From: Herbidospora sakaeratensis
GTDB lineage: Bacteria; Actinomycetota; Actinomycetes; Streptosporangiales; Streptosporangiaceae
Reading direction: 5' to 3'
Length of the DNA: 61,470 nt
Assembly: GCF_001570525.1 (NCBI RefSeq)
Contig: NZ_BBXC01000029.1
Location: 18,183-79,652 of the forward strand
Positions 1,733 to 6,660 of the stretch are shown one piece after another. Position 1 is the first letter of the stretch, and each line of letters opens with the position of its first letter. The notes below the pieces were generated by a model. That model did no database searches and had not been told where the DNA came from. It was given only the letters and a program-made list of their open reading frames with translations. A program made the position numbers and the translations under genes.

Positions 1733-1822
1733 CGTGAGACGGTTTCGCGGGGGTGACGGTCGTCCGGCTACACTCAGCGAAGCCATTTAGCCGTCAGCAG
1801 CCGCTGCATGAGGAGCCACGAG

Positions 1823-3010
<1,188 letters not shown>

Positions 3011-3049: not shown

Positions 3050-3073
3050 GGTTGCTGCTAGGACTTGGGCCTT

Positions 3074-6000
3074 GTGAGCGAGGGTTCGCAGGAGGCGCTG
3101 ATCGCGCTTCCCTCCGACGCGACCTCCCCGGCAGCCCGAGGGAGGGCCGCAGGCGCGCCCGCACCCGCCCCGCACCTTCCGGTGGCGCGTGTCGTGGTCG
3201 ACAACCCGCTGCCGCACCTGGATCGGCCCTTCGACTATCTCGTTCCCGTGGCGCTCGACGACGTCGCCCTGCCCGGGGTGCGGGTGCGGGTGCGGTTCGC
3301 CGGGAAGCTGACCGATGCGTTTCTGCTGGAGCGGGTGGAGTCCAGCGCGCATCAGGGGGCGTTGCTCTTCCTTGAGCGGGTGATCTCGGCTGAGCGGGTG
3401 CTGACGGCGGAGATCTCCGCTCTGGCGCGGGCGGTGGCCGACCGGTATGCGGGGACGTTGTCCGACGTGCTGCGGCTGGCGATCCCGCCGCGACACGCGC
3501 GGGCGGAGGCGGCGGCGGTGTCCCGGCGGGGGGTGTCGGCGACTCTTCGGCCTGGTGACGGCGGGGGGGCTGGGGGCGCGAATCTTGAAATTTCCGGCGG
3601 CGTGGGGTCTTCGCGGCAGGGGGGCGCGGGTTCCGAGGGGTCGTCGGGCGGGACGAATGCCGAAATTTCTGGTGGTGCGGCGGTTGCGGCGTCTTTGCCG
3701 GATGGGGATCGGTCGGCGGGTGGGCCGATTCCTGGCCGGGCAGATGGAGTGTCTTCCCCAGAGGGGAATGCGGGCCGGGGGTCGTCTGGCGGGGTGATAC
3801 CCGTAACTTCTGGCGGTCCTGCGGATGTGGCGTCTTTGCCGCCGGGTCATGAGGGGCCGGGGGGTGGACCGAGTCCCGAGTTGGTCGGTGGTCAGGCAGA
3901 CCAGGTGTCTTCGCCGGAGGGGAGTGCGGGTCAGGGGTCGTCTCGCGGGGTGAATCCCGTAATCTCTGGCGGTCCTGCGGATGTGGCGTCTTTGCCGGGT
4001 CGGGATCGGCTGCCGGGTGGGCCGAGTCCTGAAATATCGGGCGGCCGGGCGGATGCGGTGTCTTCGCTGCAGGGGAACGCGGGACAGAGCGGGGCGTGGG
4101 GCACGGCGAATCCCGAAATTTCTGGCGGTGCCGCGGTTGCGGGGTCTTTGCCGGGTCAGGAGGGGTCGGCGGGTGTGCCGAGCCTCCAGGTGTCCGGCAG
4201 CCGCGCAGATGTGGCGTCTTCGCCGCGGGGGGACGCGGGTCAGGGCTCGTGGGGCGGGGCGAATTCTGAGACGTCTGGCGGTCCTGTGCATGTGGCGTCT
4301 TCGTCGGATGAGGATGCGGGTCACAGGCGGCCATCGGGCGGATCGGGCGGGTCTGGCGGGTCTGGCGGGTCTGGCGGGGGAAATCCGCTGACTTCTGGCG
4401 GTCGCGCGGTCGCGGCGTCTACGCCGCATGGGGGTGAGGTTCGCTTGCGGCCCTCGGCCGGGGCGGTTGAGGCGCATTCTGAGAATTCCGGCGACCGTGC
4501 GGTTGCGGCATCTTCGCCGCTGGGGGAGGCGGGTCGCGAGTGGCCGTCGCCTGGGTCGGTTAGGGCGAGTCACGTGACTTCCGGTGGTCCCGGAGATGAG
4601 ACTTCCTCGCCCCCGGGGGAGGCGGGCCGGGAATGGTCGTCGGCCGGGGCGAATCCTGATATTTCCGGTGGGCCTGCCGACGGGGTGTCCTCGCCGCAGG
4701 AAGACACGAGTCATGACTGGAGCAGCGGCTACTGGGCTGCCTATCCCGCCGGGCCCGCATTCCTCGCCGCGCTTCACGAAGGGCGGGCGGTCCGGGCCGT
4801 CTGGACGGCGTTGCCCGGCGGGCCGCCCAGCTGGCCGCAGGCCGTGGCCGAGGCCGTTGCCGCCACCGTGGCCGCCGGGCGGGGGGCCGTGGTGGTGGTT
4901 CCCGATGGCAAGGACGTCGCCATGGTCGACGCCGCGCTCGCCGACGTCCCGCACGTCGCCATCACCGCCGATCTCGGGCCCGCCGAGCGTTATCGACGGT
5001 GGCTCAAGGTGCTGCGCGGGGAGGTCGGGGTCGCCGTCGGCAACCGGGCCGTGGCGTTCGCGCCGGTGCGGGAACTGGGGCTCGCGGTGCTCTGGGACGA
5101 CGGGGACGATCTGCACTCCGAGCGGCTGGCGCCCTACCCGCACGCCCGGGAGGTCCTGGCGACGCGGGTGCACGCGGCCGGGGCGGCGATGCTGATCGGA
5201 GGGTACGCGCGTACCGCCGAAGGGACACGGCTGATCGCCACCGGGTGGGCGAAACCGTTGACCGCCGCCCGCGATGACGTCCGGCGGCGGGCGCCCCGGG
5301 TGCGGGCGGCCGGGGACGACGCCGAGCTGCACCGCGACGAGGCGGCCCGGGCGGCCCGGTTGCCGAGTGTCGCCTGGCGGGCGCTCAAAGGGGGGCTGGA
5401 GAGCGGGCCGGTGCTCGTGCAGGTGCCTCGGCGGGGATATCTCCCGGCGTTGAATTGTCAGTCTTGTCGCACGCGGGCGCAGTGTTCGGCCTGCTCCGGG
5501 CCGCTGGCGCTGACCAACGGGCATGCGGCGCCCTACTGCCGCTGGTGCGGCCGGATCGCCGGAGACTGGCGGTGCCCCAACTGCGGGTCTCCCCGGCTGC
5601 GAGCGGCTGTCGTGGGAGCGCGCAGGACGGCCGAGGAGCTGGGGCGGGCGTTCCCGTCGACGCGGGTCACCACGTCGGGGCGCGACGGGGTGCTCGCGTC
5701 GGTGCCCGACGCGCCGGCCCTCGTGGTGGCCACTCCCGGCGCCGAGCCGGTCGCCGAAAACGGTTACGCGGCCGCCGCGCTGCTCGACGGGTGGGCGATG
5801 CTCAGCAGGCCCGATCTGCGGGCCGCCGAGGAGGCGCTGCGCAGGTGGCTGAACGCCGCCGCGCTCGTGCGGCCCGGCGGGGAGGTGGTCGTGCTCGCCG
5901 ACGCGCAGGCGCCGGTCACCCAGGCGCTGGTCCGGTGGGATCCCGTCACGCACGCCGAGCGCGAGCTCCGCGACCGCGCCGAACTCGGGTTCCCGCCCGT

Positions 6001-6256
6001 CACTCAGGTCGGTACGCTCACCGGGCCCCCTTCGGCGATCCGCGAGATGCTCGGGCTGGTGACCCTTCCGGAAGGTGTCGAGGTGCTGGGGCCGGTGCCG
6101 GTGGGGCGGACCGGCGAGGAGCGGGCCGTGCTCAGGGCGGCGCGGTCGCGGGGGGCCGAACTGGTCAGAGTCCTCAAGGGCGCGGCCGGGATCAGGTCGG
6201 CGCGCAAGGCCGCCGACGTCGTGAGGATCGACATCGATCCGCTCGATCTGCTGTGA
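3074..6256 (+). CDS. priA: primosomal protein N' (PriA-like) with a large internal repeat insertion
   Basis: PriA recognises stalled forks and starts replisome reloading. The N-terminal DNA-binding domain is recognisable around residues 40-140 (VVVDNPLPHLDRPFDYLVP, VRVRVRFAGKL). The C-terminal part has paired cysteines (NCQSC, CSAC, YCRWC, RCPNC) that bind zinc in PriA. Where a Walker A motif is expected the sequence reads LPGGPPSWPQ, and the Walker B region reads LWDDGDD, so helicase activity is doubtful, as in other actinobacterial PriA proteins. The protein is about 1060 aa. Residues ~165-555 are a degenerate Gly/Ser-rich repeat, without which it would be a normal ~670 aa. The reading frame is intact. 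The start could also be the TTG at 3065. Confidence 0.9.
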   Translation: MSEGSQEALIALPSDATSPAARGRAAGAPAPAPHLPVARVVVDNPLPHLDRPFDYLVPVALDDVALPGVRVRVRFAGKLTDAFLLERVESSAHQGALLFLERVISAERVLTAEISALARAVADRYAGTLSDVLRLAIPPRHARAEAAAVSRRGVSATLRPGDGGGAGGANLEISGGVGSSRQGGAGSEGSSGGTNAEISGGAAVAASLPDGDRSAGGPIPGRADGVSSPEGNAGRGSSGGVIPVTSGGPADVASLPPGHEGPGGGPSPELVGGQADQVSSPEGSAGQGSSRGVNPVISGGPADVASLPGRDRLPGGPSPEISGGRADAVSSLQGNAGQSGAWGTANPEISGGAAVAGSLPGQEGSAGVPSLQVSGSRADVASSPRGDAGQGSWGGANSETSGGPVHVASSSDEDAGHRRPSGGSGGSGGSGGSGGGNPLTSGGRAVAASTPHGGEVRLRPSAGAVEAHSENSGDRAVAASSPLGEAGREWPSPGSVRASHVTSGGPGDETSSPPGEAGREWSSAGANPDISGGPADGVSSPQEDTSHDWSSGYWAAYPAGPAFLAALHEGRAVRAVWTALPGGPPSWPQAVAEAVAATVAAGRGAVVVVPDGKDVAMVDAALADVPHVAITADLGPAERYRRWLKVLRGEVGVAVGNRAVAFAPVRELGLAVLWDDGDDLHSERLAPYPHAREVLATRVHAAGAAMLIGGYARTAEGTRLIATGWAKPLTAARDDVRRRAPRVRAAGDDAELHRDEAARAARLPSVAWRALKGGLESGPVLVQVPRRGYLPALNCQSCRTRAQCSACSGPLALTNGHAAPYCRWCGRIAGDWRCPNCGSPRLRAAVVGARRTAEELGRAFPSTRVTTSGRDGVLASVPDAPALVVATPGAEPVAENGYAAAALLDGWAMLSRPDLRAAEEALRRWLNAAALVRPGGEVVVLADAQAPVTQALVRWDPVTHAERELRDRAELGFPPVTQVGTLTGPPSAIREMLGLVTLPEGVEVLGPVPVGRTGEERAVLRAARSRGAELVRVLKGAAGIRSARKAADVVRIDIDPLDLL
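3570..4725 (+). repeat. in-frame degenerate ~75-nt repeats inside priA
   Basis: Roughly 14-15 diverged units encode a ~25-residue pattern that can be written NPEISGGxADVASSPxGxAG plus a short Gly/Ser tail. The marker ISGG/TSGG recurs about every 25 or 50 residues. Near 4340-4380 a 9-nt TCTGGCGGG tract is tandemly repeated and encodes GGS units. Frame is kept throughout, so length changes appear to have occurred in multiples of three. Confidence 0.85.
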
Positions 6257-6297: not shown

Positions 6298-6660
6298 CGC
6301 GTCAGGGGGCGACGACTCGTATGTGGTCCCGCGTTCGAGGGAGCGAAGGGGCGAGGACTTGGTGTGAGCACCGCCTCTCAAGGGAGGAGGACTTGCTGTG
6401 AGCACCGCGTCTCAGGGGGCGACGATTGGTATGTGGTGCCGCCTTGCAGGGGCGGGGACTGCTGTGAGCACCGCGCCTCAAGGGGCGAGGACTCGCTATG
6501 AGCACGCGTCTCAAGGGGCGACGACTCGCATGTAGTCCCGCGTCTCAAGGGGCGACGACTCGCATGTAGTCCCGCGTCTCAAGGGCTCGCTGTGATCATC
6601 GTGTTCTGAGCGTCGAAGACTTGCATGTGGTCACCGCGAACCCGAGAGTCGAAGACCTCC
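6298..6660. repeat. degenerate ~34-bp tandem minisatellite
   Basis: About 11 adjoining units of 27-41 bp (mostly 32-35 bp) start just after priA. Two neighbouring units (6506-6539 and 6540-6573) are identical and begin CGCGTCTCAAGGGGCGACGA. Units fall into two types, one with a CATGTAGTCC-like end and one with CTGTGAGCAC. Short dyads lie within many units (GACT/AGTC or TGCT/AGCA). There are no unique spacers. Confidence 0.85.

Follow-up and report, generated by a model that had tools for sequence, protein, structure and literature searches.

The window, meaning the whole 61,470-nucleotide stretch analysed from the source Herbidospora genome (G000; the six other Herbidospora genomes searched are G001-G006), carries priA in an open reading frame at 3065..6256 on the plus strand, with no stop anywhere along the frame. 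Within this frame GTG at 3074 appears a likelier start than TTG at 3065 because of its AGGA spacing. The gene 5' of priA (1808-3010) is, by its reading, presumably an S-adenosylmethionine synthase. Against NCBIfam NF011452, the curated actinobacterial PriA model, the whole protein scores 976.7 bits (E 6.2e-294), slightly short of the cut-off of 980. The locus comprises the following features:

3074..6256, plus strand: priA, about 1060 aa including the linker; alternative TTG start at 3065
3188..3487, plus strand: 3' DNA-binding domain (PriA_3primeBD), Pfam PF17764, residues 42-141, E 3.1e-16
3503..4723, plus strand: low-complexity Gly/Ser-rich linker, 407 aa, at the winged-helix position of canonical PriA
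3587..3594, no strand: palindrome core GAAATTTC, exact, read as EIS
3641..4713, plus strand: 11 diverged 77-nt units (25-26 aa; double unit 156 bp), repeat search at identity of at least 60%
3662..3669, no strand: palindrome core GAAATTTC, exact, read as EIS
4031..4038, no strand: palindrome core with one mismatch (GAAATATC), read as EIS
4115..4122, no strand: palindrome core GAAATTTC, exact, inside CCCGAAATTTC, read as EIS
4337..4378, plus strand: 9-bp tandem run coding Gly-Gly-Ser repeats (Tandem Repeats Finder)
4658..4665, no strand: palindrome core with one mismatch (GATATTTC), read as DIS
4724..6253, plus strand: pseudo-helicase lobes, zinc-binding cysteines and C-terminal domain (profile match, alignment and predicted model)

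Bounded by ...IPPRHAR and SGYWAAYPAG, the linker measures 407 aa (406 with a second anchor set) and is 24% Gly, 17% Ser and 13% Ala. A sequence-only reading of this DNA had placed an in-frame repeat insertion of about 390 residues at 3570..4725, in a protein whose frame, N-terminal DNA-binding domain and zinc-binding region it took to be intact, and had expected a normal PriA of about 670 residues on its removal. Our analysis bears this out: about 653 residues remain without the linker, the frame is open, the 3' DNA-binding domain (3'BD) is a confident region of the AlphaFold2 model, the helicase-like body and the C-terminal part are preserved, and the zinc-region cysteines C795, C804, C807, C822, C825, C834 and C837 are invariant in 46 aligned rows, with C798 nearly so. 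The supposed loss of helicase function is likewise supported at the level of motifs, as Walker A or DExH occurs in 0 of the 46 aligned actinobacterial PriA rows, a state common to the rows and not peculiar to the Herbidospora protein.

All 11 linker units lie in a single codon phase, and each spacing is a multiple of 3. Tandem Repeats Finder reports a period of 156 (3.7 copies, score 542, 3734-4301) and a period of 93 in 2.2 copies (4384-4584). The earlier estimate of 14-15 units was a little high, since we count 11 units of about 26 residues by alignment and 12 by the xSG marker (14 motif rows, 2 of them SS). As one long DNA match, the linker region occurs at a single place in the genome (40 of 150 candidates scored). 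The sequence-only reading had named an assembly artefact as a threat to its own view; this is unlikely because all seven Herbidospora genomes searched carry in-frame, stop-free linkers of different lengths. Downstream of priA, the intergenic interval 6346-6585 holds about 7 copies of a degenerate 34-bp direct repeat (AAGGGGCGAGGACTTGCTGTGAGCACCGCGTCTC), and no relation between this array and the linker repeat was noticed.

Linker position and length across actinobacteria

Alignment to Escherichia coli PriA pairs query residue 143 with residue 103 and query residue 568 with residue 208, which puts the linker at the place of the winged helix, with the qualification that the N-terminal piece of this alignment is weak (i-Evalue 0.07, and 0.001 with 6dcr). 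Over residues 152-542 the AlphaFold2 model has a pLDDT of about 26-44, a low value that may in part stem from the thin alignment there, and no secondary structure is predicted in that interval. The linker is thus predicted to be disordered, in line with the earlier suggestion. Foldseek ranks 6dcr, the winged-helix deletion of E. coli PriA, in first place; by VIA, five PriA entries fall within 2 Z units (26.8 to 24.8) and are close to tied, so that 6dcr is first only nominally.

To compare linkers, we examined 105 PriA rows, namely the 7 from Herbidospora, 78 nearest matches and 20 from a class-wide search in which the PriA body was matched in 138 of 148 genomes. Two rows (L050 and L058) were dropped as the 3'BD was not found on their stretch, leaving 103 (L165 and L078 are identical). 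Linker length runs from 12 to 419 residues with a mode of 16 and a median of 35, values that are biased upward because the class-wide rows were picked mostly for long open frames; the sample is not random, leans to near relatives and long frames, and its length counts are therefore not class frequencies. In 39 of the 103 actinobacterial rows the linker has at most 20 residues, which cannot hold a domain of about 100 residues, so the winged helix has no room in many relatives. The sampled actinobacterial PriA would accordingly resemble the E. coli deletion, in which no winged helix stands between the 3'BD and the helicase body, with the difference that the 6dcr deletion is engineered and the actinobacterial state is natural, with a linker of 12-419 residues. 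We read the sampled proteins as probable natural pseudo-helicases that lack the winged helix, a claim covered by the joint probability given below for the whole explanation.

A partial parallel exists in Deinococcus radiodurans, whose PriA is described in PMC4504706 as a pseudohelicase that lacks functional Walker motifs but has a presumed role in reloading the replisome. The introduction of that paper names Deinococcus-Thermus as notable exceptions, and the legend of its Figure 1 places PriA length variation mostly in the N-terminal region. In the D. radiodurans protein, arginine takes the place of the Walker A lysine and the motif is still recognisable. Both proteins lack working Walker motifs; D. 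radiodurans keeps an altered Walker A, whereas Herbidospora PriA has lost both motifs and the winged helix.

The sequence-only reading fared less well in treating the insertion as isolated or simply recent. The linker is long in all seven Herbidospora genomes searched (121-419 aa), the five longest (285, 309, 404, 406 and 419 residues) all belong to this genus and the next has 234. Linkers of at least 80 residues occur in 35 rows, and the tree of 103 PriAs requires at least 15 changes between short and long; this tree was built from the rest of the protein by a quick method, 13 changes are forced by its starred branches and the shuffled mean is 29.4. Near neighbours on it can have very unequal linkers, as in two Sphaerisporangium with 215 and 29, Microbispora triticiradicis (26) adjacent to G070 (128), and Nonomuraea sp. 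PA05 (117) and N. solani (19). Two long stop-free frames from other families, G144 (1108 aa) and G134 (1082 aa), might have challenged Herbidospora for the longest linker, but the linker accounts for just 19 and 17 residues of them and the surplus lies upstream of the gene. Judged from these sequences, hypervariability at this site in PriA is widespread, and Herbidospora marks its extreme. In some genera (L175, L176, L168 and L177) the PriA-body match splits near query residue 250-310, which suggests a second site of variable insertion.

Within Herbidospora, linkers align between species only in short pieces, which excludes a conserved, non-repetitive domain shared by the close relatives, and the anticipated variability of the tandem expansion is evident in period as well as length: the main repeat lag is 156 in G000, 39 and its multiples in G001, 54 in G004 and 87 in G005, while in G002, G003 and G006 no lag rises much above the others (highest identity 0.38-0.39). 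These differences between species fit continuing duplication and decay. Mismatches among the 11 units fall on codon positions 1/2/3 at 0.29/0.42/0.37, and pairwise comparison of the units gives a median dN of 0.47 and dS of 0.57, with dN < dS in 29 of 55 pairs; for the C-terminal part of PriA, G000 versus G002, dN is 0.028 and dS 0.271. On the codon-position and dN/dS figures, amino-acid identity is hardly constrained in the linker and the frame is kept. The species-specific repeat content looks recent, unlike the long linker itself.

A palindrome inside and outside priA

The ISGG marker of the linker is often encoded GAA ATT TCN GG, and its EISGG form is written by the palindrome CCGAAATTTCGG. 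The exact core GAAATTTC occurs 3 times in the G000 linker, 2 in G002, 3 in G004, 3 in G005 and 0 in each of G001, G003 and G006, against at most 0.015 expected per linker from 200 dinucleotide shuffles. The linker of H. cretacea (G001) has a single degenerate copy. Allowing one mismatch, the seven linkers hold 24 core sites, every one in EIS phase, and their flanks are closer to the consensus of the dispersed copies than are the remaining in-phase positions of the linkers (0 of 20000 resamples), although the 24 sites are partly tandem copies, which lack independence, and it was this same motif that led to the family. Within the motif, the seven linkers use ATT for 17 of 25 Ile codons, compared with a share of 2.1% among the Ile codons of 23 long ORFs elsewhere counted in the window; since 7 of 13 other linker Ile codons are also ATT, this rare codon is a trait of the linker and does not by itself mark the motif.

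The palindrome is dispersed beyond priA. Across the whole G000 genome GAAATTTCNGG yields 41 strand matches at 33 places, 3 of them in priA, versus 1 match for the reversed pattern, a lenient control since it contains TAA, so that counts across family genomes serve better. In these, CCGAAATTTCGG has 18 sites in G000, 6 in G003 and 13 in G033, which belongs to another genus, and is absent from 61 of 80 family genomes; a control pattern is present in 2 of the family genomes, at one site apiece. No GAAATTTCNGG was found in loci L010-L088, all of which except L013 come from other genera.

Between genes the palindrome takes a longer form. Sixteen copies chosen by eye (15 from G000, 1 from G003) align to nCGATATGCCGAAATTTCGGGCGGCGnnnGCCGCCCG, in which a GC-rich stem comes after a tag. 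Thirteen of these hairpin-class copies were tested for their position, which is between scored genes for 12 and in cobN for 1 (L122). In 14 of the 16 copies, the stretch 3' of the tag on average folds more stably than its shuffles (mean z -2.14, range +1.34 to -5.35). The CobN copy folds at -15.0 kcal/mol with a z of only -1.23, and covariation in the hairpin alignment, taken in fixed register, received no support. The PriA copies (mean fold z +0.30, n=5) are without the hairpin half, which was lost or never present, and as a result their descent from the intergenic element rests on about 20 bp. An element model gives 31-53 matches at E <=1 in each of the seven Herbidospora genomes (rough E-values; 150 candidates scored per genome). 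When the model was run over 110 kb (six priA loci plus the window), the 12 top-scoring hits all fell within priA linkers, those of G000, G001, G002, G004 and G005 and none in G003 or G006, with the reservation that these hits include both-strand overlaps and share the core by which the family was found. A segment of G000 (G000:C11:254165-255053; L111, L219 and L220) contains six element matches within 900 bp in what is apparently an intergenic array.

Rfam gave two hits against 8 loci with the intergenic element, both below the gathering score and off the element. A RAYT transposase as mobiliser found no support, the RAYT/Y1 transposase profile PF01797 being present in 1 of the 7 Herbidospora genomes and absent from G000, with 5 of 14 control genomes positive; the search with this Y1 profile in the seven genomes yielded no mobiliser for the palindromic element. 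Among the literature matches listed, none describes the PriA linker or the palindromic element in its title or abstract opening.

The same candidate seed in unrelated proteins

Units of the same kind occur in a nonribosomal peptide synthetase (NRPS) that has Condensation, AMP-binding and PP-binding domains and a close match in all seven Herbidospora genomes. The loop before its YTSGSTGK/R motif is 31 aa long in G001, G004 and G005, with no recognisable EISGG-type units, whereas by eye the loop carries 2 such units in G002 (55 aa), 3 in G000 (80 aa), 1 in G003 (54 aa) and 5 in G006 (125 aa). The priA and NRPS palindrome copies share the core and near flanks of the dispersed element. In CobN, the corresponding loop is empty in G003 and G005 (10 aa) and in three outgroup genera (12-15 aa) and filled in G000, G001, G002, G004 and G006, where it spans 28-56 aa and ends in PEISGHATP. 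Empty-site orthologues thus exist for CobN and NRPS and none for priA, whose seven linkers are all long. In both proteins G006 is filled and its sister G005 is empty, and the states do not track the PriA tree, meaning that one has to assume loss, repeated gain or exchange. Two further palindrome copies lie in the linker of a Ser/Thr kinase.

We asked how palindrome sites sit in reading frames across several genomes. A strict two-flank coding test, which also misses real coding cases such as the NRPS site, assigned 16 of 68 sites to genes in the EIS frame, 2 to genes in another frame, 49 to non-genic sequence and 1 to a place without an open frame. A looser coding score gave 21 EIS, 4 other and 43 unassigned, and one genic site in G000 is in a non-EIS frame. 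This bias toward the EIS frame is not proof of insertion, because several non-Herbidospora EIS sites sit in apparently ordinary proteins.

Three related observations were made. At L142 (G033), three GAAATTTC palindromes at 1503, 1794 and 1902 are read as EIS(A/S)Y in one gene within 400 bp; the gene resembles a beta-hexosaminidase. What looks like a second adenylation domain, at L212 (G000:C7:876903), has VEMSGG immediately ahead of a YLIYT motif, a position that matches that of the NRPS repeats. Loci L107 (G000) and L133 (G003) encode a membrane protein, presumably a metal transporter, with a long His-Gly loop, and AEISGHAVAVLDRV is found in both species.

Seeding, expansion and competing explanations

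We propose, with a probability of roughly 0.64, that the Herbidospora linker arose in a PriA without a winged helix, where a free linker grew by palindrome-seeded, in-frame tandem duplication into a passive tether. Loss of the winged helix would have freed the linker between the 3'BD and the PriA body; comparison of the sampled proteins shows its length and sequence to be nearly free as long as the reading frame stays. Copies of the palindromic element may then have landed in loops that tolerate extra residues, and the in-frame palindrome, read as (P)EISGG, would have supplied direct repeats as a seed on which slippage or unequal recombination could act. Repeated in-frame tandem duplication and turnover, seen in the species-specific periods and the codon-position data, brought the Herbidospora linkers to 121-419 residues, probably under selection for frame only. 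We infer that the linker seed derived from the dispersed element and that this element is able to move. In the cell, the linker is probably a long flexible tether without a sequence-specific role.

The units might instead be functional, serving as short linear motifs for contact with a partner (SSB, DnaB or another fork protein) or for condensation, with copy number tuning avidity. EIS-type motifs are indeed recognisable in 6 of the 7 linkers, the Gly/Ser/Ala-rich composition is common to the genus, and codon position 1 is the least variable among units. We nevertheless regard this as unlikely, given that substitution among units is near-neutral (the 29 of 55 pairs above), that EISG was not seen by eye in long linkers of other genera, and that EISGG units also occur in the NRPS and a related piece in CobN, neither of which needs a fork partner. 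Quite unlikely, too, is a DNA-level array of sites for a regulator or nucleoid factor, with priA as the host of a cluster whose translation is incidental. Such an array would suit the perfect palindromes, which extend up to ATGTCCCGAAATTTCGGGACAT (L104), and the 13 sites in another genus of the family, but the linker sites are degenerate, species-variable and nearly lost in H. cretacea, and the hairpin half present in many intergenic copies would be superfluous in a palindrome that binds a protein.

Under slippage alone, chance would lengthen linkers that are GC-rich and of low complexity, and their base composition would happen to produce the palindrome. This account draws on the long linkers with unrelated repeats in Lentzea, Actinoplanes and Nonomuraea, at loci without GAAATTTCNGG. 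The excess of exact cores over shuffled expectation in four of the seven linkers, and the presence of the seed in two unrelated genes having orthologues without it, make it very unlikely.

Returning to palindrome-seeded expansion, the linker repeats seem to be part of a process that touches other Herbidospora proteins. Rickettsia palindromic elements (RPEs) are 100-150 bp long and occur both between genes and inside unrelated proteins whose orthologues lack them. The Herbidospora element is alike in being intergenic as well as in-frame in unrelated proteins with empty orthologues. It differs in its core of about 20 bp (37-47 bp with the hairpin) compared with the 100-150 bp of RPEs, in its high-GC, free-living actinomycete host and in its tandem amplification in priA and the NRPS. 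Insertion of RPEs in-frame in ORFs is reported in PMC3733652, whose title names REP tags of GTAG or CGTC type. With REPs the Herbidospora element shares a conserved tag followed by a GC-rich stem-loop, a mostly intergenic location and tens of matches per genome. Unlike REPs, it has the tag CGATATGCCGAAATTTC, which is of neither type, it has copies inside genes, and a Y1/RAYT-like transposase is found in just 1 of 7 genomes. The broader proposal, that a mobile or recently mobile palindromic element of Herbidospora inserts in-frame in loops of unrelated proteins (as EIS(G) in priA, NRPS and cobN) and then expands tandemly in some, as a protein-lengthening element of the RPE kind, stands at even odds.

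If that proposal is true, three proteins owe extra length to the element, namely PriA in replication restart, the NRPS in its adenylation domain and a cobaltochelatase, with the PriA linker as the largest landing pad, and a free-living high-GC actinomycete would have a protein-lengthening element of the RPE kind. Should the seeding be true, a tiny palindromic DNA would have become new protein sequence and then grown in tandem, with filled and empty orthologues in sister species. More broadly, the suggestion that the sampled actinobacterial PriA is a natural winged-helix deletion, with a linker of almost any length connecting its halves, would make the minimal needs of replication restart testable.
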